A stretch of DNA of 64,000 nucleotides from Cyclina sinensis (lineage: Eukaryota > Mollusca > Bivalvia > Venerida > Veneridae): contig JAAONU010000001.1 of the NCBI GenBank assembly GCA_012932295.1, positions 28,806,550 to 28,870,549 on the forward strand. The letters run 5' to 3'. The notes beneath the pieces are model-generated. The model had not been told where the DNA came from. It saw only the letters and a list, made by a program, of their open reading frames with translations, and searched no databases. Made by a program: the position numbers and the translations under genes. This document shows positions 1,631-56,555 of the stretch, in pieces. Each line of letters opens with the position of its first letter. The stretch's first letter is position 1.

Positions 1631-4600
1631 TTAACTGTATCGTGCTAGTTTTTCTTTGATCCAGGGCATGAAAGCGGACACCCTTGCGTACACACCCGCA
1701 CATCCCTCGCCGAACGAAACAACTCCGAGAGCAGTGTATTTACCTGCAATGAAAACAACAGATGCCTTGTTAACTTGAACAGAATTAGAGACAGCACATA
1801 TCCTTCAGAAATTCACCCTGTACAAATGTATTGCAATATGAATTCTTCTATCACGATTCCAGATAATGAAAACAGATAAAAGTTCACCGTGCCATTCTTC
1901 GATGCGTGAACTCCTTAACTAGAATAACATGCAGCTAAATTAATTCTATTTGGATTAAATGGTCTTTTAGCTTCAACGTTTCAAAACCTCCTTACAGATA
2001 CAGTAAAACTTCGATGTATCGAACTTCGATGGATCGAGATTTTCGGTGTTTCGAAGTTTCTCTAAAGTCCCGATATATTTGCCTTACACAGATGAAATAT
2101 TTGCTGCTCGTGAAATGTACACGCTTTCCTGTGAGTGATCTCCGAACATGAATCGAAGTCTCAATGTATCGAATTTATTTCGATGGTCCCAAGAACTTCG
2201 ATACATCGGGTCTTCGATACATCTAAGTTCTACTATATATAATATATATTTTTCCTATTCAGTAAGTTTGTTATGATTGGTACAACCATTAGTTTTGATG
2301 TTTTAGTGGCAATTTTAGATACACATCAATCAAACCCTGGAACGTAAAACGTATTCCTGGTGTAGTCTTGTCAGTAACAAATGGTTAACATTGTTATTAA
2401 CGTTCTTCATTTAAATATGTGCATTTAGACTGGAAATCAGACTCCAGCTCACTAGTTTGCTTGCTGAATAATGTGCATTCTGGTATCAACAAGGAAATTG
2501 TGAAGAATACGACCAGAGCTCAGCCTATTTCTCCCAAGACATCTCACTGAAGTTACTGTTGTCCGAAACAGATACATACAACATTTTTGTTCTAGACACA
2601 AATTTAAAAATTTTAGAATTTATTTTAAAACCTGTTTAGCTGGGCACATACCATTTATCTTGCACACAAGCGGTCCGCCGGAGTCTCCTGCGCACGTGTC
2701 TACGCCTCCGGCTAGGTAGCCAGCACACGCCATTTTTGGTGTAATCGTGTGCTTATACAACCTGTTACATGTCCTCTGATCTACCAATGGTACACGCGCA
2801 GCTTTCATGTAATCGCTCTGAGCATCTTCAATAGATTTACAAAATTAACGAACTTAAGAGCTGCACATTTGATATAAGCTAACTTCCTTAAGTTTCATTT
2901 GGAGACTTGCTTTATTTCAGTAACTCAACATCAAAGCTTTGCGTAAGTCAGAAGCTTTATAATCAGGTCCCCAGAATATACAGATTTCTCATTCTCAAAC
3001 TGATAACTCGTTTTTGTGCAACAACGATAGTAATCAAGCCGTTTCAAATGACACATTTCAAATCTATTATATACATGTAAAATAATTTGACAAGAAGAAT
3101 TTAAAGGGTCAGTTTCGTTTACAAATAACGACATATATTTTTAGATATTCGTACCAATACCTTTTTGTACATTTAAAACCTGTCTACCTTTGATCTTTGT
3201 GATCTTGTAATGAAAGTTCATGATTCATACTTAATAAATAAAATAGAATAAATAAAATAATAAACGCAGATTGATATTGTTATGTTCTTTCTTTTCTGTC
3301 AACTTCATTCAAGGCTAAAATTTATAGACGCATATTGTTTACACTTAAAATTGTGCCACTGTCATCATCGTCATCATAATCAAGAACATCAGACGTTTAC
3401 AAGAATATGTTGTTTAAACTGACTGCGTCTTTCGTAGACGGCAGTACAGAAAAATCGTCAAGAACTTCAAATCAACCACATTTGCTGTTTGGCTAGGGTT
3501 TCAGTTTAACCTGCAGTGCTAAAATATGAAATTGCGAACTTTCCTGTTTATTCACAGAAGAACCTGTTCTGTATACTTCCAGATTAGATTACATGGATAA
3601 AGAAATTAACTACCCCAAAACCTATTTTACTCAGAACTTGTTAGATTTTTCTTTTCTTTCAACATTTGATCTTTAAGTGAGAATTAACTGCATGTAATGT
3701 TTCTAAAGTTCATAGGTTTATAGTTTATTGTGTATAATGACGAGATCCAACAACTAAGTACTTTTCACATATTTATACCAACAATTTTTGTTCACTTTAA
3801 GCAGTTTTATCCTTGACCTTTGTGATCGAGTAATTAAAGTTCATCATTCATATAAACGCAGATTAATGTTATCTTTTCTTCTATTCTGAGATCTTTATTA
3901 GCTAAAATTGAGCTAAAATTAATTTATATGGTTTTCTTTCAAGATCATCATCATCAGTCCAATCATCATCATTGTAATCATAATAAATATTCGTATTAGA
4001 GAATAAATTAGTTAAAGACACTTAATCTTTTGTCGATGGCGGTATATAATAAGGTTTAATTAGACATCTATCTTTAACATATGAGCCTGAACTAAAATTA
4101 ACAAGATACCATGTGATTATGTTAGGAAGACTGTATAAGTCTTTAGTTAAAAACAACCAAATCAAAGTCAAATTATATTTTGAATTGTAGGAATAATTAG
4201 AGAGATATGTATTTGTTCAAACAATACGTTTGTTAATTAATTAGGGTTTCTTTAAAAACACAAACTTCCTTAAGTGTTTTGAACTGTACATGTCTATTTT
4301 GTTTTTAATTTAAACTACCTTCAATGATTGTTGTGGTTATCTGGGATGCTAATACGATGTTCCGCAAAATTTGTGAATGTAAGAGGTCAATATAATCGCT
4401 AAATACTCTTTTGGTTAATAGTGACTATTGCGAATTTTTCGACGGAGCTGTATTAAAATTGATTTTGACATGCATTTGTAACGAATGAAATTGTTTGATA
4501 CAAAATCTTCAGCTGGAGAAAGAAGTTTGCCATTGGTTAAAAGCTGTCATTATATTTTAGGGCAGAATTAGTTATTGTTAGTATGTGTCTCAAAAATAAT

Positions 4601-6582
4601 ACAATAATAACATTAATACAGCTGTTAAAACATTATAATCGTAATAAAATTATATTAAAAGGAATGAATATGTAACAAATTTATCTAAACATATAAAATA
4701 TTTCATTGAAAATGGTATTGACACTTTTAGCATGAAACTCAACATTTTTTTAGCCGAATCTGTTATGGAAATAAAGATTCGATTACTATACGCGTTCAAT
4801 ATTTGCCGATGTCCGAAAAACTACACACTTGTGGGACATTTATTTTGTACTGTATCTACGCCGAACATCTTTTTTGAAGATATTTCTTGTTATAATCGTT
4901 TTTCTATCACAGACCATGTATGTTTCCATGCTAAAAGTAAAAAAAAACATTAATTAGATTTTCATATATACACTACAGTTGCCCTTTTAGATGTTTAAGG
5001 TGTCTGAATCGGTCTAATTAATAATTAGCACTTTTGAACGATTAAACCACGCCAACAAATTGCTAGAATTTTAAGTTTTGGTAACTAGCATATACCAGAA
5101 GACCAGACAGTACTAACCGTCTTCATGTTCTCCCCAGCCTGACACAAGACATTCAAGGCCAGGTGGGTATTCTGTAGTTTCATCTGGAAGGCAGGCCGGT
5201 TGTACATAGTCGTTGAAAACTATACCTCTTCCATGTATTGGTCTCAGCTTTAGCAACGCTATATCGTTGTCGTAGTCAACAGCTGGAAAGAGTTTTAAAG
5301 AAGCACTGTTTCAGCCAATAACCTTAAAATACATACAGAGCACAACAACGAAGATCAAAGGATGGACATCCCAAGGAAAAGACACCCAGACTGACGGCCC
5401 TAGAATAATGTAGAGATACACACCATCTATGTCGCTAAAGCTCGTTATATATTGTCCGTTTATAATGAAATATTATCATTATAATACCATACTAATTGAA
5501 GCAAGTGTATGTGCATTTTATAGTGCATATTCTTTTACTTCGTAGTTTATGAACCAAATTGTGATTTAGGAGTTTTAAAGGATTATTCTCACGTCAACGT
5601 CGACACCTAAAAATTGATCCACTTACTTCAAGGAAATTAATCAGTATCACACATCATGTCTAGGCGATGACTGGTTGCAGAGCAACCGATTATCGAAAGT
5701 CAGGGTTATGGTTGTACTTAAAACACTAAATGATAGATTTAAAAGCCGTACTTACAATTATAATTTTCATGTGGGATGATAGTCTCCACGTCAAATTCTT
5801 GCTCATACTTATCTCTATGCCTAGCATTGTTGTCCCCAGTTCGAACTATGATCTGGCCTTTACTAGCGTCTCTGAAAGGCAAGGTTTAGGAAAGAATAAG
5901 ATGTTCTGCTTTCAGATTCTTTTGTATGGCGTTGATACGAAGTTGACATCATCGTCAAATTCAATAACAATATTTCTGACAATGAAAATTAACGACTTTT
6001 GGATAAGCTTATAATACGGTCTATAAAACTTCAAACATAAAATAGTGAAAAAATGCGGTGAAAAAAATACAAAGCCTTAAATTAATATTTTTGGCTGACC
6101 TTCATTGATCATGCACAAATTCTTACTGCATACTAGGTAGAACGGTTTTTTTATGCTACATTCATTCCCAGAGTATGTAATTTACCTCCCTTAAAAATTC
6201 AAATCGGTCCATTCAACATATTTAGGTAGTAGTAAAACGGAAGAAAAATCTTGCTACTGTAATAGTCACGTGAGGTATAAATAAAAGTGAAGGAAATGAT
6301 CGAACCTAAAACAGTGTGCAGCACTTAGAATCCAGAATTCTCCAATAATAGTACCGCCGCAGTGATGTATGTGATAGCCAATCAATCCTCCAAGCCGTCT
6401 CCTGATCCGCGCTTGCCAGGGATACATGCCGTACGAGGCTTCAGATCCACCATAAATCCGGCCCATTTTCCGGTATGGCAGAAAGTCCATACCGTAACTG
6501 TCATCTTCTTCGCCTATGTCTCTGCGTGCCCGGTGGTTTTCAAGCGGTCGTACACCACACGATGAATTGAAATTAAAACCAC
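1631..6582 (-). CDS. exons 24-28: trypsin-like serine protease domain
   Basis: Exons 6582-6306, 5871-5756, 5282-5118, 2825-2652 and 1743-1631 code about residues 1125-1405. The propeptide contains SSCGVRP, whose cysteine should pair with PACLP of the catalytic chain. Activation is predicted at KMGR|IYGG (about Arg1166). Catalytic residues are His in LSAAHC (about 1214), Asp in DNDIALL (about 1262) and Ser in TCAGDSGGP (about 1359). The Asp of VDTC six residues before that Ser is the S1-pocket residue (chymotrypsin 189), predicting cleavage after Arg or Lys. All S1-family disulfide cysteines expected for a two-chain trypsin are present. SWG of the substrate strand is SFG. The chain ends IKEKLARYS and TAA. 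Nothing catalytic is missing, so it should be active after activation. Confidence 0.96.
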
Positions 6583-9500
6583 CTGCTCACAAAACAAAGG
6601 TAAAAATTAGAGTGCTATAAAACATAACATTGAGCTAGTTCAACGCCTGAAATACTTCAAAGACACCAGACAACTCGGATTCTGAACGTGATGTTATCTT
6701 CAGAAGCAGAATGAGATAAAACTCACCTTGCTGCAATTATCACAAAGACTTTGTATTATGTTTCTCATAATAAAAAGAGCCAGATTTTACACTTACCGAA
6801 AAATGGAGGACATTTCCATATTCACAATGATAACTAACAGTAACCAGATTGTTAGAAGCTCTTTACCGAATCAGTCGACTTTTAAAAAGTCGTAAAAAGG
6901 TATGAAAAACAATATATGTGTGTGAAGTTAGCTATGAACTGGAAATTAGGTACTGGATTTTCATTACCCAGCTCAGTTTGAATTCCAAGCCAGCTGGGAA
7001 TAAGGATTTCGTCCCGAAAGAGCCAAACACCCAACTGATATCGAATTCCTAGCTAGCTAGGTGTTGGATATTCAACCAAAATGATTCCCTAACCCGGTTC
7101 GAATTCCTAGCTAGCTGGGAGTTGGGTATTCGACCCGAAAGAGCCGAAAACCCAGCTGAGATCGAAGTTTTTGCTGGCTAGGAGTTGGGTATTCAACCAA
7201 ACGAATATCCAGCTCGGTATGAATTCCCGGCCAGCTGGAAGTTGGAAATTCGTCCCGAAAGAGCCGAGCTGAAAGAACTGAGATGTTCCGGCAAGGTGTC
7301 AGTATATCAAATATTTAAATATCAATCAATAAATAAAGGCTATATGGCAAAAAGTAGAAAAAAAACTATTTATATCATTACTGACCTTGACCTAGTGACC
7401 TCAGACTCCACCTTAGAGTAGAGGCCCATGCAAGAAACCTACATACCTAACATTAAAGATATTGGTCTATAAATGAAGGCTATATGAGGTAAAGTAGATA
7501 AATCCATTTTAAGCCTCAATGACCTTAACCCCAATTTAATGGAAGAGATTCGTGCAAGGCTCTATGACGAAAATTTGAAAAGTCTGCTTTTAGCTCTGGT
7601 GACACAGGAGCAGAGTCAATTTGACCTCAGGGCCAAGATTTGAACAAACTTGGTAGAGGTCTACTAGGTCAGGTTACACAAATATATTAACACTATTATG
7701 CTGGCATAATATTCAAATTTTTGTTGTTTCGAATGTCGAAAATCGAATGACGTGCTAGCACAACATTCAAATTTCATGACTTACGAATTTCGTATTCAAA
7801 TGTTGTGCTGTCTCAACATTCAAATTACAAGTGTTTCGAATGACGAATACCAAATGTCGTGTTACGAATGTTGTATGTCGAATGTCGTGCTAGCATAACA
7901 TTCAAACCAAATCATTCAAATTTTTGTTGTTTCGAATGTCAAATGTGGTGCTAGAACAAAATTCAAATTTCATGAGTTACGCATGTTGTATGTTGAATGT
8001 CGTGCTAGCACACCATTCAAACCAAATCATTTAAAATTTTGGTTGTTTCGAATGTCGAATGTCGTACTAGCTCAACATTCAAATTTCATGAGTTACGAAT
8101 GTCGTATATCAAATGTTGTGCTGGCACAACATTCAAACTACAAGTGTTTCGAATGACGAATACCAAATGTCGTGTTAGCACAACATTCAAACCAAATCAT
8201 TAAAAATTTGAATGTCGTATGTCGAATGTCGTGCTAGCACAACATTGGCTTTTGCCAAAGTCAAATGTCGAATGTTGAGCTAATACGACATTCGTTTCGG
8301 CCAATGTCGAATGTCGTATGTTAAGCTAACTTCACACACACCAGAAAGTGACAATTTGTTGCCTTTGATTAATACTTAAGTTTACATGTTGGCTTTGAAA
8401 GAAACCTAATTTTTCTGTAAACTTGGATGTTATATCTTAACAACCGTACCGGCGCATCTTGAGACATTGCAGTATTCCCATCGAACATTAGGAGTAGTTG
8501 TGTAACACCATAATGTAACATCATCATCAGGTGCCCTGCAGTGATTAGCCGCGGCAATAACACTCCCATCCGGGAAGGAACCATCACTGTGGTATTTATG
8601 GCTATGAGGTAAATCTGAGGCCCAGCTTTGACATACGTGACCCGACGTTGTACGTGACGTTGGTCCAGTGTACTCGGATGCAATAGTGAAACAATTAACT
8701 AAAATATAGAAGTTTTCTTGATACGGGAAGTCGTTAAAGTTAGGCTAAATTTGTGTTCAAAACGACCAAACTATAATTTCCAAGATACAAAAACGGAATC
8801 ATATAAAAAAGAAGCAGGATAGTAATTAAGTAATAGAACAGTAAATAAATCGTTACCCTACATTCATTTTGTATATTTGCTTGCTACCATGGATTACACT
8901 AACAAATCATAAGTTTTTTTTCAAAACAATCGTAAAATATTTAATAAAATAAAATATATAATACAATTCAAATAAATAATGCAACTATGACTCAAGAAGG
9001 ATTTCTCCGACAGGGTTACATACTAGTAACTTTGTTCAGTGTTAGCTATAGTTTTGAGTCGCGGATATTTGTTGTTTTATATTTAACAAGCCGATGTTGA
9101 CCGACTTACTGCAAGAGGTGTCGTCTTAAGAAACGATTTTCAGTTGTGTTGGCTGTACTTGTGACCGTAAATAAAAAGTGTTTTATCAATTACTGTCGAA
9201 AAGTAATACGCTTAGGCCAAAAACACTCTGTTATCAAGGACAAAGATGTGTACACATTGAGTCTGAAATATGCAGAAATGCAAAATGAAAGATGTCTTAA
9301 ATAGTGCCGAGTAGATAATTAAAAGAGGGACGTGATGGTCCTATATCGCTGATCTAAGTTCCAAAGCTCTGAACAGTAACGCCAATAAAGTACGTTTAGT
9401 TAAAGTGCAGCATAATCCGACATCTGAATTATGTTCACTTAATGGCAAGTTTGTTACCAAGACTATGGTCTCTATGACCTGACCAGATACTAAGTGAATA

Positions 9501-27500: not shown

Positions 27501-30500
27501 AAAAATCTTTTAGAACACTTCTCTATTTTTGATTGGTGTTATTTTTAGTAATAACAGTTTTATTACTGTATTTCTAATTTGGGAGAAGGTGACTGTGTAC
27601 ACTATCTCACTATTACTTGTATAGTTTGGATGAGAAATACTGATGTGTCATAGTCATGTTCGCATGTATTGTGTAGGCTACTTGAAACGATCAACAAAAT
27701 ATTTATCTGTTTTGAGATTGCAAATGTACTTGATTCACTTTCCTCTTATTTTGAAAGGTTTTATCTCTAATATAACTAGAAATACATCATCATCATTGCA
27801 GCAGTTGAAATCAACCATACATAAAGAAAGCTAGAATATAGTGAAATGCTTTATTATCTATACCTACCGACCATCGTTACATCTGAATTCGTCAATGGAA
27901 CATACCGTTTCTAGAATAAAGAAAAAAAACAAAAAAGAAAAATCAAATGTAGACGAGACGGAGTTTGGTAATTCGCGACATCGGAAAATTCGCCAGAATC
28001 AAAATTTTCGATGCATCAATGAGTAAAATACTGATTTAATATCCACGACATATACATTTAAATCAAAAAGTGGAATAAAATATACACATGCCTTCTTCAC
28101 TGCTTTGTTCTGTACTGTGGCTTTCGTCTTCTGTCGAACATTTTGGGATGTCACAGAACTCGAAATTTCCCGGGGAAATCCAGCACCAGGGCGCCTCGTC
28201 TCTGTCCGGGTTCCGACAGAAGTTATGATCCCCTAGTCCCTGAAATTACAGGGTTAACCAATGTTGACGAAATTACTTTTGTTTTATTGCAAATGGTTGC
28301 AATTAGATAGGTCAAAAACATTAAATCTACCATTAAGAAATGTGTCGACCTATACACGTTTACATGCAAACGCTGCAATTAGAAATACTGTTTTGAAGCA
28401 TAAAAACCGAAAGAAATGGTTGACTGTACCGTTTCTGGGTACGTGTCTGGATTAATGTCCGTAGCTTCTGTCCATTTCATACATGCCGTACCTGTTCTTG
28501 TGTAAGATACCGTGCCCCGATACTCAGTGCCTATTCCCTTGTAACAACCTGAAAGTGATACCTGATACGATTTGTTAGGAGCTTTGAAGTACTTTTATCA
28601 CGAATAAGCCTATGCAGGATACAAACGTCATTGAATCCTGTTCTAGTTGGCATGATTTTTTATCAATTTCCTTAATGTCTATTGTTTTTTTCCGGTGATA
28701 GTTGCAACTGTTTTTTTTTTTTTTGTTCTTGTTTTTTTGTTTTGTTTTTTTTTAAACTTTTTTTTCAGCTTTTTTTAATTGGTATTTCTAAGTGTTTGCT
28801 TCTTTGACTTTTGCACCGAACAACAGTTCATTATAACTGAATAACATGAATGAACAACCGCATAAAAGATATATTTGGCAGATAATAGCGAGAGCGTGAC
28901 TCATTATAAAAACAGTTAGCAGCATAGTACATTCTTTACACCAAAAAGTCCATGCGTTCCATAGAAGGTACTTTATCTGATGTTTTATGAAAAACTCGGT
29001 AGTTTTATATTGTAGCATTATATTGAAGAAGAAATGGTGCTTAATTCTGATGAAAGACTTTGCATCGATTTCTACACGGAGAAAGTGCGCGTGGGATACA
29101 TAGCTGTATTCAGGTACGTACAGAATATGCCGAAACAGTGTCAGCGATATTGAATAATGTATGAACTGTAATTTTGTCATGTCGGTCCCGGCCTGATATT
29201 CTACATAAAAACATTAAACTTCTTTCTAAACCTCATCAATTCGCATATAAAATTTAATCATTAGGGTAGTGTCAACTAAATTATCAAAGCACTGAATGTA
29301 CTGAAATCAAGCGCGCACTGCTAGAGCTATGATGCACCTGCTGTTTTTATACACTTCAGATTTTTTGTAACATTACAGATAGAATTTCTTTTCTGAGAAC
29401 ATTGCTTAATACTGTAAAGCTACTTTAAACATCTACCAAACGTATCTTACCACCGTCTGTCCTTTCTGGAAGCTTTTCACACATGTACCGAAATTCGGAT
29501 TTTGAGCGCTTTCTTGTGCCTGAACACAGCTCATTTAACCAGAAGTGGTAACCAACGTTTACGTCACTTCCGTTTGGATGATGAAAGACATTGGACATAT
29601 ACAGGCATCGCTCTTTCTTGTTGTCTGTTGGTTCGGCCAGAACATTACCTGGTTGCCAACCTAGAAAGCATAACTGACTTCTCATCTCGCGTGAATAGCA
29701 AAAAAGAAAAAATGAACTAGATAAATTTTTAAGAGAAAACATTTGTCTCCCTCCATTTGACTCCACCCTATATGTTGATAATGTTGCAAAACTAGTTTTA
29801 GCATTGATAGACTCCTGTGAAGTTTGGCTGATATCCGATGAACAATATAGGAGAAATAGCGCAGAAACTTCAATATTAAATCAACAAAGAGCAATATATA
29901 CCTCTCCCTGAAAATCAATGAACCAGACCTACACAGTATACACAACTAGGTGTGGCATTGCACAAATGTGTAAAGTTTGATTGACCTCCATCATCTGGTG
30001 ACAGAGGAGTTGTCCGAACAAAGCTATTGTATAACGACATAAATATAGGACAATAACTCTGTTGAAAATCAATGAACCGGAAAACGCAGAAGATATGCAC
30101 AGCTAAGCTAAACATATATATCATGTATAGTCTGGGTGAATTCTGCCTTGTGGTGTAAGTGGAGGATTTCCCCGGAAAAAACACTGAAAATTGAATGCAT
30201 GAAGGGCAACAACTCCTATTTGATTGACAGGTAGAGCTATGGTAATACCTTTGGTGTCGCTTAAAGTGAAGCGACTAGCTTTAATATTGCAAGGAGTAAT
30301 ACAATGTATCCAGCTTTCACGCAATTTTAAAGCGTACTTCTCGGTATTTCGGTTCAATTTCGGACATTTACGTGAATACAAACCTGTATATACCTAATTT
30401 TCTAACTGGCAGAAATAAAGCAAATATCATAGTTCAACAAAATTTGTCAAACGACTTTTCCCGAAATGAAATGTTTAAACTACGGCACAACTTATTTGGA

Positions 30501-33500
30501 CTAAGCCACTATCTCCAAAAGATGACCTTTGTACAAATGATTATTCTGGTTACCAGGAAACCACTTGAAGTTCTCTATAGATGATTGGATGGTTGTTTCT
30601 ACGTCTTTGCCGTTTGTTTCTACGGAGACTTTCTCCCACATCCAATTTTGTCCGACTTTCACCCCACCGGTAAGGAAAGCACCTACAATTTATGCTGATA
30701 ATGTATTGCATTTATTGATAATTAAAACATAATTGAATAATACATCGAAATGAAGTTAAACCTCAAGATTTTAAGCTAATATCCTTAGAGCCAGACTCTA
30801 ATAATCTTTGTACGCATGCTGCGCTTGAAAATACAAATTCAGGAAAACTAAAAGTTATTGTTACATGTTACCCATATTTTCCTCTAAATGACCCATCACC
30901 TGTTTAACCTTTGCAATCTATATACCAAAGTAGCTAGAGTAAGCCATACGAAATATTTGGCAGGCATGACACGACTTCGAATTATTGACGTGTTTTCATT
31001 CGTGAGAGGAACAGTTGATTTCATGATAGATGATATACTTAATAAGATAGACATAATTTTTCAGAGCTCGCTATAAACCTTTCTTATGCTTTTTTATAAA
31101 GAAGCCTACTTGTTTAATATTCATAGAGTTTTACAGCATTAGTGCCTAATGAAAACCCACTAGGCTGGTGGTCCCTGACGGGCAGAACCATTTTTGGAAT
31201 ATAGAAACTGTAATGCGCATGCGTTACGGAATTCCGCACGGAGACTTACGAAAATAAGTGTAGAAGTCGCCATCTTGAATTTCAAGCGGTGTGGAACAGC
31301 ATGATTTTGACCAAGAGGCCTCTGACCATAAACTGGTTCCGTTAAGGTCAACACGACAGAATATATCGTTTAAAAACAAATAATAACTTCGAACTTTGTT
31401 AATTTATACACACCGGATTCGTTCGAGAAAACCTGTGACAGAAAATGGTTTTCTTCTTCTGTTTCAATGGTAACGAGATGTCCACCACGTGCTGTGCACT
31501 TGTTAATCGCGAAGTCTCGTCTGGTGACCACATCACGCGAAATCTGGTAACAGCCAGCAGGACCAGCGATCCAGTCTTCAGGGCAACCTGTATAGGAATA
31601 TAACTACAGAACTACTAGACTGAAGGTAGCTAATTGCTTTGTACATTTGTATGAGTATGTACATGAGTGAATCTGGCAAGATTAAGGATGTAAACTGTAT
31701 CCATTCAACGGTAGTAATACAGATGCTGCGGTATAATATTTTGTGGCTTAGTTTTGGCAAAACATTTAGTATTATAACGTGAATATAATATGAACAAAAT
31801 TGACCGACACGCTGTTAAAATGTACAAATCAGGCGCGTAGCTGCCTATACGCGAGTACGCAGCTGAATCCACATTATTTTGACAAAAAAAATTTTTTTTA
31901 GTAAAAAAAATGTGGTTTGAAATTCAGCCGCGTTCATGGATTTTCGTTGGTCAAGAAAGCTCTCCGGAGGCCCCAAAACGCACCAAATTGCACCATTTAT
32001 TTCAAAATTTTCAGGAGGGGCATGCCCCCTGACCCCCCTAGATTATTTTGAATCCACATTCTTTATAGGCTAGCTACGCGCCTGCAAATGACTATTTATC
32101 TATTCGCTACGGGAAAAAATGGTCATATTGCGAACGACCTCATCCTTTATTTTTACCAGTGTTGTGCCGACACTCGACACCTGCTGCCTTTCCAGGACCA
32201 CAGCTATCTGGTGCGTCCCACTCACAGTCAACTATTTTCTGCTCATGTCCTTCACACTCTACTCCACCAATGACGTAACGAATGCCGTTGCCAACACTTC
32301 CGCCTCTGCTGGGTGCCACTGCGCCTCTAAATAATACAGACTGTTTTGATAATTTACCCACAGCGATGAACATCACACGTATATCAAATTCTTTTCAGTA
32401 TTGTATTTGTACGTAATCTATTTGAAAATTGAACATAAAATTGAAAATACCATATCTTAGTCACTTGAAATAAGTTTTTGGATAATGCTATCGGTTTCAT
32501 TAAACATACTGATGTTGCTGCAGATAAGAACATCTCAATAGTCAATATTCAAAGTGTTTTGCAGTATTTTCCAGCAAAATTAAGTAGTGTTTGTGTACTT
32601 GAACATGTCTATAAATGTCAATTACACATACCCTAAGAAACCAATCTGCCTGCAGGCGGCATCGGCGTCTCTTTTGTTCCATTTGTTGTCACAGACAGCT
32701 CCGAACCTGCCATGTATAAAGACTTCAACACGTCCGCTAGCAATGTCTCCACCATCGACAGGGACAAGCCTGGAGTCACACACGTATAAAACGTTTATCG
32801 CTTATATCGCTTATATCGCGTTTAACAGGAGTGGTAAAAAATACCAGACTTTAAAGTGGAACGTAATACGAATAAGTTTATTTGCGATTTTGAAACAATT
32901 GATATCTGAAAAAAAAATATTTGAACTGATTCTGTAAACAGAAAAATGTTATAGACAGCTTAGAATACATTTAAGGTAAGGTTTGGTCTGACCTTGAAAT
33001 AATAGTCTCAGTTACAACAAAGGAACATGTCTTCTTCTGTTTTTCACAAGTTTGAATCTTATACAAAAGTCACTACACTTAGAGATAATGTTGCATTTAA
33101 CTTATATCCTATAAGAAAGGGTAGCCTTCGGTCGATTTAGGTAAATACGGGCGTACCTTGTGTAGCCTAGATGAAAAGGAGAATAAAAGAAAATTTTTGT
33201 TTCCTAGTGATAACTGATTTTCTATAAAACATGTAATTTATACAGCCACTGTAGCGCTCGAAAATATCTTTATAGAACACAAACTGGTTTTCTAAACAAT
33301 ATGTAATTTATACAGCCATGTAGCTCATCAGCAAAACTTTGTTTTAATAATTTTGTGTCAAATGACCGTGATATTTAGCCATAAAAAATAACCGTGATAT
33401 TAAGAAATACCAAATGCCCGTGATAAGCCATACAAAATGACCGTGATATTAAGCCATACAAAATGACCATGATATTAAGCCAGACAAAATGACCGTGATA

Positions 33501-36500
33501 TTAAGAAATACCAAATGACCATGATAAGCCATAAAAAATGGCCGTGATATTAAGCCATACAAAATGACAGTGATATTAAGCCATATTAAATGACAGTGAT
33601 ATTAAGCCATACCAAATGACCGTAATATTAAGAAATACCAAATGACCGTGATAGGCCATACAAAATGACCGTGATATTAAGCCATACAAAATGACAGTGA
33701 TATTAAGACCGTGATATTAAGCCAGACAAAATGACCGTGATACAAAGAAATAACAAATGACCGTGATAAGCCATACAAAATGACTGTGATAAGCCATACA
33801 AAATGACTGTGATAAGCCATACAAAATGACAGTGATATTAAGACCGTGGTATTAAGCCAGACAAAATGACCGTGATATAAAGAAATACCAAATGACCGTG
33901 ATAAGCCATACAAAATGACCGTGATATTAAGCCATACAAAATGACCGTGATATTAAGCCATACAAAATGACAGTGATATTAAGCCATACAAAATGTCCGT
34001 GATATTAAGCCATACAAAATGACCGTGATATTAAGCCATACAAAATGACAGTGATATTAAGTCATACAAAATGACCGTGATATTAAGCCATACAAAATGA
34101 CAGTGATATTAAGCCATATAAATTGACCGAGATATTAAGCCAGACAAAATGGCTATAATCCCCACATTGGTCCTGAGCTTACGACTCACCTTATTTGCTG
34201 ACCTGTTGATGGAGCTCCGACCTCTGACGTTTCCGACCTTAATTGATAACTTCCATAAAAATGGCCTCTTTTCTGAATCAGATAAAAAAAGTATTAATTT
34301 TTACTTTAGTCTGCATATAAAAAACTGGCCAGTGGATGTCTCGAATTTTTTTTGTCCTCATAAGTAGCTGTAAGAAAGCTTCAAATTTAAAGAATCTCTT
34401 TCGGTAGTGACGATAGCCGAGAGAAGCATCAGGAGTATTCTTTTTAGGATAGCTACCGGTAACTGTCAGCGCTAACTCACCTTCAGGTTTCACAGCAACA
34501 TGCCTTTGCATTAAACAGCCGAGAACATCGAATAAATATTCGACTGTTGTAAAAAATGGATTTATTAATTGAGCGCAACGCATATATTTTGTTTCTGAAA
34601 GCCATTGTTATTGTACAAGTAAATGCTTCGCTTACAAATAATTGTTTGTAGTTGGTCGTGTTTCGGTATTTGATTAAATATGATTTATTTATTTATTTAT
34701 TTATCTATTTATTTATTTATTTTTGCGTTTTTACTGACAATAATATCTCAAAAGAGCACAAAGTAATTGTTAATATTTAACGTTAATATTTGCAATATTT
34801 TTTAATATTACAATGGTTTAAAACTGCTTTTGAAAATAAAATCTCCATTACTCTCATCTATCAGACCTATTTAAAGATCCGGACCACTGAGCACGGAACT
34901 GTATTAGTTTTGTCTCCCATTACGAACAAATTGACAAATTGTCTTAAGCAAAAGGGCAAAAAAGACCAATTATTTATGAGACCTAAAATATCATGATACA
35001 TAGCAACCTCAACACATTCGAAGCGTGATTTATGCGTGCTTTACGTTGCTTTTTACCTCGAAGCGTACTTTATGCGTGCTATACGTTGCTTGTTACCTCG
35101 AAGAGTACTTTATGCGTGCTATACGTTGCTTGTTACCTCGAAGAGTACTTTATGCGTGTCTTACGTTGCTTGTTACCTCGAAGCGTACTTTATGCGTGCC
35201 TTACGATCCTTGTTACCTCGAAGAGTACATTACGCGTACTTTACGTTGGTTGTTATCCCTAAAGTGTATTTTACGCGTGCTTTACCTTGCTTTTTACTTT
35301 TAAGCGTACTTAACTCGTGCTTTACCTTGCTTTTTACCTTTAAGCGTACTTTATGCGTGCTTTACCTTGCTTGGTACCTCGAAGAATTCGATCGTCATCC
35401 GACATGCGGTTAAACAACTAACCATATGGGAGAGAAATACTTACAATGAAATGCATGGCTGGTTGCATGGTTGGTGACGATTTCTTTATATTTTCAAAGT
35501 AATACAAATACAGCTCTTTGCAGACCGCAGCAATAGCTCACACAGTACTGGAACTCAAACTTAATAGAAACTTAAAAGTAAAAATAACTAAAAGGTCATG
35601 TTTTTCAATAACTGTAAGGTTGTGGAAACGGTTGAAAACTTAAGCTGACACTGGTCCTAATGCATTACTGACAGTAGGAATATCATGAAAAGTTCTCATC
35701 CAACAATTAAGTTTATAGCTAAAGAACTCTACTAACAAATACTTTACAATAACACGAGGTGAGCGTATACATATTTCTCTTTCAACAGAACACTTCTCAA
35801 TCAAAGACTGAAACAAGTTCCAAATAACTTCTCAACAGTCATGCCGTCATTTGACAGCTATCTGTGATAAAATCAACAGTCATGCCGTCATTTGACAGTT
35901 ATCTGTGATAAAATCAACAGTCATGCCGTCATTTGACAGCTATCTAGGATACCTAGATTACCAGCACATAGGTTAGAGTACATCAGCTGTGAATCCTACC
36001 GTTTGTGAAAAAGATAAATAGTTCGTTTAAGGAAATGTAATATCTATCTCCCAAGACTCGAATGTAATTTTACATGTGAGCATATGTCTCTTAGTTACAC
36101 TAGAAAGAGTAGTGTACTTTGATATCTAATTATTCTACTTAGAAACTGTAGATATGTGAAACATGCTTGTAATTTCACTGAAACTTCCATTGGAAAAAAT
36201 ATTTTACTTTTTGTAATATGCCTAACGACGCACAGTTGTTTCAGATCTACCAAAATATTGTAAAAGTGTAAAAGAATATACAACGTTAACGTTACCTATG
36301 TATCAAAATTATATCATAAAATACTCAAGTAAATATGACATATACATTGTATTAAACATAATGTTGTAATACTTCTTAAAATTTCTTTCTATGCAGGTTT
36401 GCATGAATGTATGATTAAAGATACTAGGGAATTCTTGACTGTTACCTTTTTTATCTTACTGAGACCTGACCCTTTCATTGTCTAACATAAAAGTTGTCTT

Positions 36501-37188
36501 CCTATCAGTTTTAAGGCACCTTTAACCAACGAACGCTTCAAAGGTAAACACCGAGATTCAGTAATACAGAAATAGAAATCGCACAACCATACACAGTTTT
36601 TTTTATGAGTCTACGCAGTGGATCCGACGGATATTCGAGGATATCTCCTGGCAAATCTACTGAATAGATATCATATCTATCGCGCATTCAGGCGCTTGGA
36701 ATGTAATTGGGATCCAAAATAAACGTGTGAATGGAAGTAACAACTTTTAAGTATTTGTCATGAGTTACAATTGAATTTATTGTTATCACGTATGACAGTC
36801 AGTATGCTTGGAGTCCCAGTCATGTTCCTAGTACCTGATCCCGCAGGGTGTCAGAGAAACATCTCAATGAAAATAGAAAATTGAGTTAATGATTATTCTG
36901 ATCATGGTCTGCGTTTGGAAATAGTATACAGACATCCAATTTGTATTAAATTTACGGCTGAATGAGTGAATATCATATTTAATCAGCCAAATTAAGTATA
37001 AATGTACACGCATTATGACAACTTTTAAGTTACACGGTGTTTGATGAAAGAATATAACATTCTTATATAGACCAATAAGTTAAATTAGCCGTCAAAAAGA
37101 GAAAAGAATGTCTCACCGCATCAGCTACGAAACTACATCCGACGAGTATTAGGAACGACACACCCAGAAAAGTCTTTAAAAATCCCAT
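1631..37188 (-). CDS. secreted mosaic serine protease (SRCR/CTLD/kringle/LDLa/PAN/trypsin), 28 exons
   Basis: Whole-gene entry; the parts follow below. Exons (minus strand, 5' to 3'): 37188-37117, 34272-34190, 32769-32632, 32326-32157, 31587-31414, 30682-30554, 29660-29451, 28548-28430, 28239-28092, 27910-27868, 26944-26871, 26604-26516, 26003-25847, 25596-25489, 25278-25122, 24695-24520, 21675-21556, 21115-20974, 20375-20197, 11430-11292, 10868-10618, 10350-10105, 8698-8450, 6582-6306, 5871-5756, 5282-5118, 2825-2652, 1743-1631. They sum to 4218 nt, or 1405 residues plus TAA. Intron phases agree at every junction, and most module borders are phase 1, as is usual for shuffled extracellular domains. 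The product should be a secreted zymogen of trypsin specificity with a very large recognition region. Kringle, SRCR and trypsin together recall neurotrypsin (PRSS12), but the lectin, LDLa and PAN modules are not in that protein. Two donors appear to be GC. Symmetric phase-1 exons hidden in long introns would escape this reconstruction. Confidence 0.9.
2001..2235. mobile_element. MITE of Tc1/mariner or pogo type with TA target duplication
   Basis: About 235 bp bounded by inverted ends: CAGTAAAACTTCGATGTATC on the left and a matching AAGTTCTACTA on the right, with a TA on each side (1999-2000, 2236-2237). The interior repeats short TCGATGTATCGAA-like words in both orientations. There is no coding capacity. 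It lies in the intron between the last two protease exons. Confidence 0.75.
2826..5117. other. protease intron 26, no gene seen
   Basis: AT-rich intron between trypsin exons 26 and 27. Two stretches (about 3190-3420 and 3800-4000) resemble each other, both with TTTGTGATC, TTCATGATTCAT-like and CATCATCATC words, so an old duplication is likely. I see no conserved coding exon. Confidence 0.5.
6960..7275. repeat. tandem repeat of about 60-bp units
   Basis: About five diverged units sharing GAATTCC, AGCCAGCTGG, GTTGGGTATTC and CGACCCGAAAGAGCC. Alternate units differ in the last block (CCCGAAAGAGCC against AACCAAAATGATTCC), suggesting a higher-order repeat of about 120 bp. Confidence 0.8.
7690..8335. 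repeat. imperfect array of CATTCAAAT / TCGAATGTCG words
   Basis: More than a dozen alternating blocks of ACAACATTCAAAT and TCGAATGTCGTGCTAGCA, partly inverted relative to each other, so the region could fold extensively. No reading frame is maintained. Confidence 0.75.
8450..8698 (-). CDS. exon 23: kringle domain 3
   Basis: A single exon coding [54 protein letters not shown] and [10 protein letters not shown]. Its length (249 nt against 246) and layout, including the PDGSVxAAAN block, closely match kringle 2. The pair probably arose by tandem duplication. It sits directly before the protease domain, as the last kringle does in plasminogen-like proteases. Confidence 0.96.
8699..10104. other. 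protease intron 22, no gene seen
   Basis: Contains AT-rich unique sequence to about 9100 and, from about 9660 to 10080, a dispersed repeat containing CTTGGTAGACGTCTATTAA-type wording that recurs at 12150-12540 and 19480-20100. No coding exon is seen. Confidence 0.5.
10105..10350 (-). CDS. exon 22: kringle domain 2
   Basis: A single exon coding one whole kringle: [53 protein letters not shown] and [10 protein letters not shown]. Six cysteines and the CRxPD, PWCYTT and RWxYC blocks are intact. Kringle 1 is split over two exons, whereas kringles 2 and 3 are each one exon, so the two groups have different histories. Confidence 0.96.
10618..11430 (-). CDS. exons 20-21: SRCR domain 4 and Ser/Thr-rich linker
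   Basis: Exon 20 (11430-11292) codes [40 protein letters not shown]. Exon 21 (10868-10618) codes [17 protein letters not shown] and [13 protein letters not shown], then a 30-residue linker rich in Ser, Thr and Glu ([19 protein letters not shown]) that could carry O-glycans. Six cysteines and a phase-2 internal intron match the other SRCR copies. The donor CCAG|GTCACA is followed immediately by an in-frame stop in the intron. Confidence 0.92.
11431..12562. repeat. dispersed repeat remnants on the 5' side of the retrotransposon
   Basis: Part of the large protease intron 19. Short blocks such as CTTGGTAGAGGTTTACTGG and GACAAAGTTCCAACAATCTTGG occur here and again past the element at 19480-20100. 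The retrotransposon therefore appears to have landed inside an older repeat, whose two halves now flank it. Confidence 0.55.
12563..12748 (+). repeat. left terminal direct repeat A1 of the retrotransposon
   Basis: About 186 bp beginning AATTGCGGCTATCACTCGTT and repeated at 18328-18520. The first bases can form a hairpin: CGGCTATCA, loop CTCGT, TGATAGCCG. The repeat ends around TATTCATTTGAA, after which the two copies diverge completely. Confidence 0.9.
13259..14241 (+). pseudogene. gag-like frame with zinc-knuckle-like tail, frameshifted
   Basis: The first open stretch (13259-13960, 233 codons) begins [15 protein letters not shown] with a basic N-terminus and a middle region containing [18 protein letters not shown], in the position of the capsid protein of DIRS-type elements. 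Near 13925-13960 the frame shifts by one: the other frame is open through [10 protein letters not shown] and continues to 14241 with a cysteine/histidine cluster ([20 protein letters not shown] and [10 protein letters not shown]), a nucleic-acid binding motif. The break implies a decayed copy or, less likely, programmed frameshifting. I do not give a joined protein. Confidence 0.8.
14234..15868 (+). pseudogene. reverse transcriptase-RNase H frame with internal stop
   Basis: Open in one frame from 14234 except for a TAA at 14495-14497. Downstream the RT blocks are [50 protein letters not shown] and the catalytic YLDD in [10 protein letters not shown]. RNase H follows with [30 protein letters not shown] and NSIADSISR, giving the acidic residues of the active site. 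The frame is shifted relative to the zinc-cluster frame it overlaps at 14234-14241. The stop would prevent a full RT unless it is read through. Confidence 0.9.
15763..16767 (+). CDS. tyrosine recombinase (phage-integrase fold) of the retrotransposon
   Basis: Open from 15763 to the TAG at 16765, overlapping the RNase H frame by about 106 nt. The first ATG in frame is at 15877 ([16 protein letters not shown]). The N-terminal part resembles a SAM-like core-binding domain ([28 protein letters not shown]). Catalytic motifs are FLRVSELAV (Arg I), [11 protein letters not shown] (HxxR), [10 protein letters not shown] (Trp in the His/Trp position) and YKVYLKPEY (nucleophilic Tyr). It would insert a circular cDNA by strand exchange, which fits the lack of a target duplication. 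This is the best-preserved frame of the element. Confidence 0.92.
   Translation: MATVPETSSRSDDQCQRNTGRISINALQSEASRLLSASMAENTAYAYSTGVNSFEKFRVKDALPLVWPPTVEQMVMYISWLSLQGLSHSTARLYVTAIGYQCKVYNAQDVTRNFIIQKVLEGLKRSINMREPRLPITRNVLESIVTTLPAICSDVYESYLFCAAYCLAFAAFLRVSELAVKSKMALGNVLSASDVVFSSEGDTVTILLRYSKNDQYGKGVSLQIKKTGARICAYTNLSNFLHRRPRVGGPLFCHLNGDPLTRYQFSSVLKKCLAVRQLDYGKFTAHSFRIGAATTAAMAGYPVDIIKSAGRWRSGAYKVYLKPEYVVSLPVLTL
16855..17436 (+). CDS. SGNH/GDSL-type hydrolase frame of the retrotransposon
   Basis: Open from 16855 after a TAA at 16852, with no ATG near its start. Block I reads [12 protein letters not shown], where the nucleophile Ser would lie in ASS in place of the usual GDS or GSS. Block III is [10 protein letters not shown] (Gly and Asn of the oxyanion hole) and block V is [13 protein letters not shown] (Asp and His). 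SGNH frames are a known extra gene of Ngaro-type elements; their role is unknown. Translation may need splicing (a TTTTTAAG precedes the block) or reinitiation. Confidence 0.8.
   Translation, partial: GPVKVWLVASSIIKHAFAVARSRQSELQFGLEDFDIWWQGYSGMNLRDVVPKLRTLKEIGDKPDIILLHCGGNSLGRTPLKIIRELIDDIVRFINENFRCTIIWSEILPRSSWRYSSNIQAMETARKRINSYAATRVIANKGCYIKHKDLREVTPLYYMADGVHLTRQGNCLFLDRLSVALHAYINRSVQYLS
17632..18329 (+). repeat. right terminal direct repeat B1 of the retrotransposon
   Basis: About 698 bp starting GGCAGACAGCGATATCCGAA and ending CTCCTAATAA. By eye it is indistinguishable from 18765-19462. It contains a short internal tandem motif, GTTGTTTAGCCTTTTGGGGC, in several degenerate copies (about 17795-17960). 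Small open frames here on both strands are by-products. Confidence 0.92.
18328..19462 (+). mobile_element. A2-X-B2: adjacent non-autonomous relative, or split-repeat right end
   Basis: Begins with A2 (18328-18520), has a 245-bp middle X (18521-18764) not found elsewhere in the window, and ends with B2 (18765-19462). B1 and A2 share the AA at 18328-18329. Two readings fit: a short internally deleted element that inserted beside the full one, or the B1-A2-B2 right end of a Ngaro element with split direct repeats. In the standard split-repeat layout A2 and B2 are contiguous, so X argues for the first. The outer right border is TAATAA|CAAGAG. Confidence 0.75.
18521..18764 (+). other. unique middle segment X with acceptor-like site and short open frame
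   Basis: Contains a polypyrimidine stretch ending TTTCTCTTGCAG, then an ATG (18690) opening a 25-codon frame [20 protein letters not shown] and a stop. The gag gene of the neighbouring element is also preceded by a TTTGCAG acceptor-like site, so X may be the leader and first codons of a different, related autonomous element. Confidence 0.5.
19463..20196. repeat. dispersed repeat on the 3' side of the retrotransposon
   Basis: Repeats of GGTAGACGTCT / GGTAGAGGTCT and GACCCATGGGACA wording, ending near 20100 with GTTGACAACGGACACAGGG, which recurs near 40145 as GTTGATGACGGATGCCGGACA. This is an old dispersed family, not a gene. Confidence 0.6.
20197..21115 (-). CDS. exons 18-19: SRCR domain 3
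   Basis: Exon 18 (21115-20974) codes [40 protein letters not shown]. Exon 19 (20375-20197) codes [18 protein letters not shown] and [13 protein letters not shown]. It is a six-cysteine group A SRCR. The 3' end of exon 19 is uncertain: GATG|GCAAAT at 20197/20196 is a GC donor in the right phase, an alternative GTTTAT a few codons on is weak, and a GT at ACAT|GTCAGA would remove the last SRCR cysteine. The next intron is the 8.8-kb one holding the retrotransposon. Confidence 0.88.
20840..20930 (-). repeat. degenerate tRNA-like SINE head
   Basis: On the minus strand it reads CCGTGTAGCTAAGTTGGTAA (box A-like) followed by a degenerate box B (GGACGAGTCC). No complete cloverleaf and no intact box B, so a SINE remnant is more likely than a tRNA gene. 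It lies between exons 17 and 18. Confidence 0.5.
21556..21675 (-). CDS. exon 17: LDLa domain 3, atypical
   Basis: A single 120-nt phase-1 exon coding [20 protein letters not shown] and then [16 protein letters not shown]. The LDLa fold pattern is clear, but two acidic calcium ligands are replaced (D to Q and D to A) and two extra cysteines are present, giving eight. It may be stabilised by an added disulfide instead of calcium (inference). Confidence 0.9.
22111..22149. repeat. (CAA)n then (TAA)n microsatellite
   Basis: About eight CAA units followed by four AAT units. Confidence 0.9.
22922..23076. mobile_element. 155-bp long-hairpin element
   Basis: Two arms of about 75 bp are reverse complements with a few mismatches: left GTGGAAGATGGGAATTTATT, right AATAAATTCTCATCTTCCAC. 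They meet at a short centre around GTGGCTGCGCCAC. The whole unit could fold as one hairpin, as in foldback MITEs. No target duplication is obvious. Confidence 0.75.
24025..24160. repeat. (TTCA)n/(TTCG)n microsatellite
   Basis: Imperfect tetranucleotide run changing from ATTCATTC to GTTCGTTCG. It creates long frames without coding meaning. Confidence 0.85.
24520..25278 (-). CDS. exons 15-16: SRCR domain 2
   Basis: Exon 15 (25278-25122) codes [27 protein letters not shown] and [11 protein letters not shown]. Exon 16 (24695-24520) codes [29 protein letters not shown]. Six cysteines are present with a phase-2 internal intron. The usual HxEDAGVxC ending is replaced by SWEIAAVKC, so the C-terminal strand has diverged from SRCR3 and SRCR4. 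A 16-bp minisatellite (24792-24919) lies about 100 bp upstream of the exon 16 acceptor. Confidence 0.94.
24792..24919. repeat. 16-bp minisatellite, 8 copies
   Basis: Unit TATATCAGACTGTCGG, eight copies with A/T variation at one position. It lies in the intron just upstream of SRCR 2 exon 16. Confidence 0.95.
25489..25596 (-). CDS. exon 14: LDLa domain 2
   Basis: A single 108-nt exon with phase-1 borders. It codes [20 protein letters not shown] followed by [15 protein letters not shown]: six cysteines and a nearly canonical calcium cage ending in SDE. This is the best conserved of the three LDLa modules. Confidence 0.95.
25847..26604 (-). CDS. exons 12-13: PAN/apple-like domain
   Basis: Exon 12 (26604-26516) codes [20 protein letters not shown] and ends ATNET at phase 0. 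Exon 13 (26003-25847) codes [18 protein letters not shown], then [13 protein letters not shown]. The CxxxC helix, the VCxSFSF strand and the ECxLS strand are the signature of PAN/apple domains, found in plasminogen, HGF and coagulation factor XI, where they bind proteins or glycans. Assignment rests on this pattern alone. A profile search would confirm it. Confidence 0.78.
26871..27910 (-). CDS. exons 10-11: LDL-receptor class A domain 1
   Basis: Exon 10 is only 43 nt (27910-27868) and codes [13 protein letters not shown]. Exon 11 (26944-26871) codes the rest, [20 protein letters not shown] to TSC. Together they give six cysteines and an incomplete acidic calcium cage. The split arginine codon CG|C joins cleanly with GTAGGT and ACAG splice signals. 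LDLa modules bind calcium and usually mediate ligand binding. Confidence 0.88.
27115..27215 (-). repeat. tRNA-derived SINE head
   Basis: Minus strand shows box A-like TTTGGCTCAGTGGTCTAGG and a good box B GAGTTCGAATCC about 30 nt on. The spacing and boxes are tRNA-like, but no clean acceptor stem is seen. Probably a SINE fragment in intron 10. Confidence 0.6.
27267..27451. repeat. 37-bp tandem repeat, 5 copies
   Basis: Unit begins AATAACACGATCTCATTTGC and ends CTCTCTTTTC. Copies differ by single bases, which points to recent expansion. Confidence 0.95.
28092..28548 (-). CDS. exons 8-9: kringle domain 1
   Basis: Exon 8 (28548-28430) codes [19 protein letters not shown] and ACMKW; exon 9 (28239-28092) codes [16 protein letters not shown] and FEFCDIPKC, about residues 326-414. 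Six kringle cysteines are present. The internal intron is phase 0. Exon 9 ends with a Ser/Glu-rich tail ([15 protein letters not shown]). For the frame to continue into the next LDLa exon the donor must be GC (AAG|GCATGT at 28092/28091), since the nearby GTs give the wrong phase. Confidence 0.9.
28549..29450. other. protease intron 7, no gene seen
   Basis: Contains a T-rich tract (28705-28775) and otherwise unique AT-rich DNA. A 130-codon minus-strand frame at 28788-29180 lacks domain-like features and is probably chance. Confidence 0.45.
29451..31587 (-). CDS. exons 5-7: C-type lectin-like domain
   Basis: Exons 31587-31414, 30682-30554 and 29660-29451 code about residues 155-325. Seen in order: [16 protein letters not shown] (the extra cysteine pair of long-form CTLDs), [63 protein letters not shown] and FRYMCEK. 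All six expected cysteines are present. The sugar-binding position reads EPT instead of EPN or QPD, and the WND box is altered to W-L-N-E, so calcium-dependent sugar binding is uncertain. Both internal introns are phase 1. A lectin domain in the middle of a kringle/SRCR serine protease is unusual. Confidence 0.93.
29661..30553. other. protease intron 6, no gene seen
   Basis: Unique AT-rich sequence between the second and third lectin exons. No repeat or extra exon recognised. Confidence 0.45.
30683..31413. other. protease intron 5, no gene seen
   Basis: Between the first and second lectin exons. Unique sequence; no feature recognised. Confidence 0.45.
31830..32084. mobile_element. 255-bp TIR element with 5-bp target duplication
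   Basis: Left end CAGGCGCGTAGCTGCCTATA; the right end reads CAGGCGCGTAGCTAGCCTATA-like on the opposite strand. CAAAT flanks both sides (31825-31829 and 32085-32089). The ends resemble hAT-type termini and the length suggests a MITE. It lies only about 70 bp past the donor of SRCR 1 exon 4. Confidence 0.85.
32157..32769 (-). CDS. exons 3-4: SRCR domain 1
   Basis: Two exons (32769-32632 and 32326-32157) code about residues 52-154. Exon 3 carries the first half, with [19 protein letters not shown] and [11 protein letters not shown]. Exon 4 carries the second half, with [15 protein letters not shown] and [13 protein letters not shown]. Six cysteines and a two-exon structure are typical of group A SRCR domains, which act as extracellular protein or ligand binding modules. 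The intron between the halves is phase 2, the same place as in the other three SRCR copies of this gene. The acceptor of exon 3 follows a long 25-bp tandem array. Confidence 0.93.
32770..34189. other. protease intron 2, dominated by a 25-bp satellite
   Basis: The exon 3 acceptor side has unique sequence to about 33350; the rest is the tandem array described separately. Confidence 0.6.
33359..34150. repeat. 25-bp tandem array (about 30 units)
   Basis: Consensus AAATGACCGTGATATTAAGC plus CATAC, with shortened variant units lacking ATATT. It ends 40 bp before exon 2 of the protease gene. Minus-strand frames reading HGHFVWLN are produced by the repeat. Confidence 0.93.
34190..37188 (-). CDS. exons 1-2: signal peptide and short linker
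   Basis: Exon 1 (37188-37117) starts at the ATG and codes 24 residues: MGFLKT, a hydrophobic core [14 protein letters not shown], then VADA. That is a standard secretory signal with likely cleavage at or near its end. The donor is GTGAGA, phase 0. Exon 2 (34272-34190) follows a TTTTTTTATCTGATTCAG acceptor and codes a 27-residue polar linker beginning [10 protein letters not shown]. It ends in a strong AAG|GTGAGT donor at phase 2. Exon 3 opens in the matching phase and completes the arginine of an IRLV start, the normal opening of an SRCR domain. That phase match is the reason for accepting the two distant 5' exons. Confidence 0.8.
35019..35387. repeat. 40-bp tandem array, about 9 copies
   Basis: Unit contains GCGTGCTATACGTTGCTTGT and TACCTCGAAGAGTACTTTAT. 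Because 40 is not a multiple of three, each unit shifts frame, and all three plus-strand frames stay open across several units, giving repetitive frames of 76-125 codons. They look like by-products. Confidence 0.9.
35838..35950. repeat. 41-bp tandem repeat, 3 copies
   Basis: Unit begins CAACAGTCATGCCGTCATTT; the third copy is truncated at CTATCTAGG. Confidence 0.9.

Positions 37189-47519: not shown

Positions 47520-56555
<9,036 letters not shown>

Follow-up and report, generated by a model that had tools for sequence, protein, structure and literature searches.

Plasminogen and HGF join a PAN domain and a kringle array to a trypsin domain, without SRCR, LDLa or C-type-lectin-like (CTLD) modules, and HGF is not catalytic. 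Vertebrate neurotrypsin (PRSS12) is described as calcium-dependent in its activity and as having a kringle, three to four SRCRs, a furin-recognised activation site and a trypsin domain, with no lectin, LDLa or PAN module in the account cited (PMC9616769), and SVH-1, with a kringle and a protease domain, acts through the Met-like SVH-2 (PMC11305532). In a 2006 survey of honey bee proteases, SP23 is given as 4LC-4CBD-SR-Clect-KR-LDLA-PA-2LDLA-SP and is related to mosquito Sp22D and to Drosophila Tequila; the latter is described there with two SRCRs, two LDLa modules and a protease domain, and as such lacks kringle, PAN and lectin (PMC1761132). The locus studied here lies in a 64,000-nt stretch of DNA from the bivalve Cyclina sinensis (the window). 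Compared by description, its product shares with PRSS12 the kringle, the SRCRs, the furin-type activation site and the trypsin domain, and goes beyond the bare pattern of one kringle, SRCRs and trypsin by a CTLD, LDLa and PAN modules and two additional kringles; with its SRCR and LDLa modules it also departs from the plasminogen/HGF pattern. It has the trypsin domain with SRCR and LDLa modules that marks protostome neurotrypsin-like proteins, and it contains the SRCR-CTLD-kringle-LDLa-PAN block printed for SP23, so the combination of modules is not new, having been in print since 2006 (PMC1761132). As printed and compared by description, SP23 lacks the two later SRCRs, and chitin-binding domains are found in the insect members (PMC1761132). 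Since no chitin-binding Pfam family was listed for the clam model at E up to 1, we describe the protein as of that kind rather than as a member proper. The statement in the initial annotation that no named protein holds all of these modules does not stand, because all of them occur together in annotated molluscan proteins, in horseshoe-crab P0130 and in honey bee SP23. The single gene probably encodes a trypsin-type zymogen that is secreted, rich in disulphides and of the protostome neurotrypsin-like (Tequila/Sp22D/SP23) kind, its kinship to Tequila, SP23, SVH-1 and vertebrate neurotrypsin being read from module order and published descriptions.

Positions 37188-1631 of the window, on the minus strand, assemble by our own reconstruction into a single gene of 28 exons with 4218 nt of coding sequence (1405 codons plus stop; Table 1). 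The exons were rebuilt by hand without the exon list of the initial annotation, and this independent model has the identical exon number, codon count and ends; automatic chaining gave more than 50 exons, many of them spurious. All 27 junctions are phase-consistent and there are no internal stops; 25 of the 27 introns have GT-AG ends and two (following exons 9 and 19) have GC-AG ends. The order of the product is signal peptide, SRCR, C-type-lectin fold, kringle, LDLa, PAN, LDLa, SRCR, LDLa, SRCR, SRCR, kringle, kringle and trypsin. Every domain of what had been called a 14-module protein was found; the count comes to 13 modules plus a signal peptide. A Pfam check on the whole protein listed four SRCR, three kringle and three LDLa stretches, PAN_1 and trypsin; Lectin_C was not listed for the whole protein, but a 171-aa piece alone reached 29.0 bits against a cut-off of 22.6, and the LDLa3 piece alone stayed under its Pfam cut-off of 24.1 bits. 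The Kyte-Doolittle hydropathy peak at residues 1-25 marks an N-terminus resembling a signal peptide; strong hydrophobicity does not recur further along, the largest 19-residue mean past residue 30 being 1.06.

Table 1. Features of the protease gene and of the retroelement in its intron 19 (positions in the window; bit scores from Pfam).
Feature	Position	Strand	Details
Exon 1: start codon, hydrophobic signal-peptide-like N-terminus	37117..37188	-	Aligned with P0002-P0004; hydropathy
Exon 2: linker into SRCR1	34190..34272	-	STGQQIRL vs PPTGQQIRL in P0002
SRCR1	32157..32769	-	Exons 3 (32769-32632), 4 (32326-32157); acidic motif CDN, not CDD
C-type-lectin-like domain	29451..31587	-	Exons 5 (31587-31414), 6 (30682-30554), 7 (29660-29451); P0001-P0004 colinear
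Kringle 1	28092..28548	-	Exons 8 (28548-28430), 9 (28239-28092), then GC-AG intron; Kringle 72.1 bits; continuous in P0001
LDLa1	26871..27910	-	Exons 10 (27910-27868), 11 (26944-26871); 49.0 bits
PAN/apple domain	25847..26604	-	Exons 12 (26604-26516), 13 (26003-25847); PAN_1 45.1 bits
LDLa2	25489..25596	-	Exon 14; 38.7 bits
SRCR2	24520..25278	-	Exons 15 (25278-25122), 16 (24695-24520); best SRCR stretch 582-679; six cysteines
LDLa3, degenerate	21556..21675	-	Exon 17; 19.6 bits alone
SRCR3	20197..21115	-	Exons 18 (21115-20974), 19 (20375-20197), then GC-AG intron; continuous in P0001
Retroelement in intron 19	12565..19460	+	Opposite to gene; absent from copy 2
SRCR4	10618..11430	-	Exons 20 (11430-11292), 21 (10868-10618)
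Kringle 2	10105..10350	-	Exon 22; one-exon, plasminogen type; 77.3 bits; tree
Kringle 3	8450..8698	-	Exon 23; one-exon, plasminogen type; 73.1 bits; tree
Exon 24	6306..6582	-	CGVRPLE cysteine, furin-like RARR, activation site R/IYGG, catalytic His (SAAHC)
Exon 25: trypsin domain	5756..5871	-	
Exon 26: trypsin domain	5118..5282	-	Catalytic Asp (DNDIALL)
Exon 27	2652..2825	-	Asp189 (VDTC), catalytic Ser195 (GDSGGP)
Exon 28: S1-pocket wall, stop codon	1631..1743	-	15 nt missing at ~1697-1699 (220-loop, five residues)

Protein searches returned P0001, a 1310-aa sequence on a 4213-nt contig (source tag 'lgn') that is 98% identical to the model. It begins inside exon 4 and is colinear across the 24 later junctions to the stop, both GC-AG introns included, so that it covers exons 4-28, with exons 1-3 outside its reach; the sole gap against the model is a five-residue loop. 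We take P0001 to be an assembled transcript, since a genomic contig of 4.2 kb could not contain 25 exons that span 30 kb. A second sequence, P0003 (1415 aa on a 4520-nt contig), is 63% identical in an alignment that spans the full length of the model. Model residues 101-151 (exon 4, SRCR1) hold 7 of the 26 differences from P0001, one of them at the first residue of P0001, and this part of SRCR1 is possibly a fast-changing surface.

The window corresponds to C1:28806550-28870549 in the 903-Mb assembly, and at a distance of 3.92 Mb contig C1 carries another, colinear copy of the locus (copy 2). Matching blocks fill the whole 104 kb compared, the end not being reached; the listed blocks are 78-99% identical, with the lowest identities in repeat arrays and 94-98% in the main blocks over the gene. 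Copy 2 keeps 28 exons and the reading frame, every exon being equal in length except exon 28 (128 vs 113 nt). Between the copies, 31 of 4218 aligned exon sites differ, with 1 indel, and 420 of 23454 aligned intron sites, with 89 indels; 14 of the 1405 residues differ and dN/dS is 0.25. A frameshifted pseudogene was considered and rejected, as there is no frameshift or stop and in view of this ratio. Copy 2 may represent the alternative haplotype or have arisen by recent duplication; if the copies are haplotypes of one locus, the loop loss described below would be an allele. Other SRCR matches on the same contig are also paired with similar scores (46396727/49496768 and 47774200/61910881), and these may be uncollapsed haplotypes or duplications in the assembly.

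The retroelement in intron 19 has open reading frames at 14498-15865 (RVT_1), 15706-16764 (Phage_integrase, just under cut-off) and 16855-17433 (GDSL, under cut-off), and two pairs of direct repeats (12563-12756/18328-18521 and 17632-17931/18765-19064), each pair 100% identical. From its ORF content and repeat layout we take it to be a tyrosine-recombinase element of the Ngaro/DIRS-like class, and the identity of the repeat pairs together with its absence from copy 2 indicates that the insertion is probably recent. Upstream of the gene lie tandem arrays with periods of 145-156 nt (43190-44846, 50501-51695, 57354-58845 and 63515-63967). A PLD-like ORF (45625-46101, minus strand; PLDc_2, 32.5 bits) and an open stretch at 42141-42410 (minus strand) with HKFIIIDG..NGSFNWT presumably resemble a mitochondrial cardiolipin hydrolase gene, and a DUF846 match at 49316-49717 (plus strand; 67.1 bits) is presumably a TVP23-like exon.

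The protease domain had been described as intact. In the window copy His57, Asp102 and Ser195, as well as Asp189, are all present, but a 15-nt in-frame deletion in exon 28 shortens the 220-loop of the S1 pocket by five residues, giving GCAGVY against GCALPNAPGVY in P0001, and the description is at best doubtful for this copy. Between Cys220 and Gly226 the window copy has a single residue and copy 2 has six, as does every relative whose sequence includes the loop (46 of 46), a count that leaves out P0008, P0079, P0097 and P0131, in which this place is not covered; plasminogen, HGF and prothrombin are likewise five residues longer there in the PDB matches. In the fold and numbering of trypsin-type proteases, this loop connects one wall of the S1 pocket with another. 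A hidden mini-exon restoring the loop was sought as LPNAP-like words in all six frames of the window, and none was found. Because the five residues lie beside the active pocket, the window copy may have a damaged or altered S1 pocket and cut poorly or not at all.

Two readings would make these features products of the data rather than of the genome. The large intron at 20196-11431, with its retroelement, lies between SRCR3 and SRCR4 and could be taken as the seam of a model that fuses two or more neighbouring genes; the initial annotation had itself singled out a gene break there, or before kringle 2, as an outcome that would refute the single gene. Both P0001 and P0003 cross the SRCR3-SRCR4 and the SRCR4-kringle 2 joins on transcript-sized contigs, which counts against a fusion unless the contigs are chimeric, and copy 2, without the retroelement, still has all 28 exons. 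As P0001 runs through exons 4-28, and so through both places, a break at either is excluded and these are not two genes; we regard a fusion as extremely improbable and reject it on the spanning contigs. An artefact of assembly or sequencing behind the absence of the 15 nt is likewise distinctly unlikely, if less so than a fusion: the loop is kept in copy 2, in P0001 and in the other relatives and the short form is seen in one assembly, but a clean 15-nt in-frame loss would be unusual as an error. Moreover, the 6.9-kb insertion and the many intron indels by which the window copy also differs from copy 2 mark it as a real separate sequence.

Relatives were collected by protein searches with two queries, the whole model and the CTLD-to-LDLa2 region of a chiton protein, and their modules (S, SRCR; C, C-type lectin; K, kringle; L, LDLa; P, PAN; T, trypsin) were typed with HMMs derived from the modules of the window protein itself and then broadened with the matches so obtained. 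They are mostly automatic gene predictions or contigs. All six module types occur in 34 of the 120 relatives listed (of 655 found), most of the others listed being SRCR arrays. As the initial annotation had proposed to check, the same order is present in other bivalves: Mercenaria mercenaria LOC123562463 (P0002; 73% identical in the best local alignment) reads S-C-K-L-P-L-S-L-S-S-K-K-T like the clam, and so, with the extra kringle pair, does Mactra antiquata 'Neurotrypsin' (P0004; 57%, best local alignment). Unlike the window copy, both have the full 220-loop, and in P0002 kringle 1 is followed by a long linker rich in Thr and Asp. The chiton 'serine protease svh-1-like' P0098 and the horseshoe-crab 'neurotrypsin-like' P0130 share the core S-C-K-L-P-L-S-L-S-T but have one SRCR fewer and no kringle pair before the trypsin domain. 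This core is exact in P0098, P0130 and contigs P0114 and P0123, P0114 grouping with octopus and Argonauta in the trypsin tree; compared with it, an SRCR is added in limpet P0124, four LDLa modules in Argonauta P0122 and a single LDLa in Macrostomum P0131 and its relatives P0132-P0133. A shorter order, K-L-P-L-S-L-(S/K)-T, is seen in two crinoids and in two species of amphioxus, and a brittle star has this order plus an LDLa; the module HMMs found no CTLD in these five deuterostome sequences. In the trypsin tree, molluscs, Tachypleus and flatworms form one protostome clade (32 rows, 100/99), and the five deuterostome rows form a clade of their own (89/87) that is not joined to it; the arthropod in this tree is the chelicerate Tachypleus, the tree having been built without the Tequila, Sp22D and SP23 sequences. 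A search with the chiton trypsin domain was dominated by multi-domain TMPRSS9-type proteins, and none of the 120 matches listed of 1655 was named neurotrypsin or plasminogen. The AlphaFold model of P0098 has a mean pLDDT of 71.5 and a pTM of 0.34; a Foldseek search with it returned enteropeptidase, CD163 and plasminogen among the first matches, which fits the SRCR and protease modules.

The clam gene differs from the shared core in its kringles. Kringles 2 and 3 are each encoded by a single exon. In a tree with few columns and with bootstrap not settled, they fall into a clade (12 rows, 100/99) separate from kringle 1, which takes up two exons, and this clade sits inside a plasminogen/amphioxus kringle group (22 rows, 97/95). 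The best PDB match of the kringle 2-kringle 3-trypsin part is plasminogen, with 410.7 bits over five stretches. The pair is present in P0001-P0004, P0007 and P0032, with at least one such kringle in the shorter P0079, and the six pair-bearing proteins with a trypsin domain form, with the window, a single trypsin clade (7 rows, 100/99). By this comparison of sequences, a plasminogen-type kringle pair is an addition within one bivalve gene clade, found only there among the relatives examined. Among the matches listed in openly licensed literature there was no report of the molluscan form or of its kringle pair.

The signal-like N-terminus, the lack of any other strongly hydrophobic stretch and the reach of P0001 bear out the earlier view of a mosaic secreted zymogen from one gene. 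The activation site R/IYGG is preceded by a furin-type RARR that ends 21 residues upstream, and these features suggest a secreted zymogen that would be activated in two cuts. A furin-like motif is present in 32 of the 44 readable sequences (window included), those with organism names all being molluscs, and absent in 12: three gastropods, the horseshoe crab, three flatworm-type sequences and all five deuterostome sequences. In the mechanism we envisage, the N-terminal modules would anchor the enzyme to a surface, to matrix or to a target, RARR would be cleaved by a proprotein convertase and R/IYGG by a trypsin-like enzyme, and the freed N-terminus would order the S1 pocket for cleavage after Arg or Lys, while the long chain would stay linked to the catalytic chain through the CGVRPLE cysteine. 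The plasminogen-type kringle pair beside the protease would probably be a further docking site.

The canonical motif of Ca-dependent sugar-binding C-type lectins is EPN or QPD, and the lectin-like module of the window has a variant, EPT, at this place. Read in 46 sequences, with the window and copy 2 among them, this place has EPS in 16, EPT in 10, QPS in 6 and EPN in 1 (P0042), with others or unclear in 13; carbohydrate binding by the EPT-variant module is possible. In another reading the protein would chiefly be a starter of humoral immunity or clotting, its SRCR and lectin-like modules binding microbes or damaged tissue and triggering a protease cascade. The acidic CDD motif is kept in SRCR2-4, though not in SRCR1, and EPT, like the EPS or EPT of most relatives (26 of the 46 sequences read), is compatible with sugar binding even though the canonical EPN/QPD is missing from the window. 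Infection and wounding are reported to induce fly Tequila, which is present in haemolymph, but the same report describes a Tequila null without phenotype and haemolymph gelatinases unchanged by LPS, and also links Tequila to memory (PMC11050137); SP22D is described as binding chitin, not bacteria (PMC1761132), and invertebrate SRCR-family genes are reported to be highly expressed in digestive-gland tissues (PMC10855680). We consider a chiefly immune role conceivable but rather unlikely. Other reports may concern proteins of this family: a scallop 'neurotrypsin' lower under Polydora infestation (PMC6281612), 'neurotrypsins' in octopus mucus (PMC11431876) and 'NETR (neurotrypsin)' as a conserved neighbour of an r-opsin gene (PMC5700196). 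Less likely still is a partly non-enzymatic ligand, like HGF or C. elegans SVH-1, with the loop-deleted copy tolerated since signalling needs no proteolysis. SVH-1 is reported to combine the roles of growth factor and protease (PMC11305532), the pocket loop of the window copy is shortened, and octopus P0092 and P0103 carry Asp for Ser195 (GDDGGP); against this, Ser195 is retained in 46 of 48 readable sequences (window included), and the other copy has the full loop. Asp189 is also kept in 46 of 48, with Asn in P0092 and P0103; in these two proteins catalysis has likely been lost inside the family, and Argonauta P0122 keeps GDSGGP. The role we favour is localised extracellular proteolysis in repair, defence or neural tissue.

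Taken together, these comparisons tie scattered annotations (neurotrypsin, svh-1-like, corin-like, DMBT1-like, 'PLAT' and 'zymogen binding') to one mosaic protease with a module order common to molluscs, a chelicerate and flatworms, and found in amphioxus and crinoids without the lectin; distinctive in the clam gene are the plasminogen-type kringle pair, shared within one bivalve gene clade, and the loop loss in exon 28 of this copy. We tentatively propose, as an idea somewhat short of an even chance, that the bilaterian ancestor had a large SRCR-(CTLD)-kringle-LDLa-PAN-LDLa-SRCR-LDLa-SRCR-trypsin zymogen, kept near-whole for more than half a billion years in several protostome lineages under misleading names (neurotrypsin, corin-like, DMBT1-like, svh-1-like) and as its K-L-P-L-S-L-(S or K)-T part in amphioxus and crinoids, that vertebrate neurotrypsin would be its trimmed remnant and the bivalve kringle pair a later addition, and that loop-deleted, perhaps non-cutting copies beside intact ones would point to a catalysis-free role. 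The origins of neurotrypsin and of the plasminogen/HGF-type kringle proteases thereby become testable by phylogeny, and a natural loop-deleted copy beside an intact one offers a ready test of the need for proteolysis.
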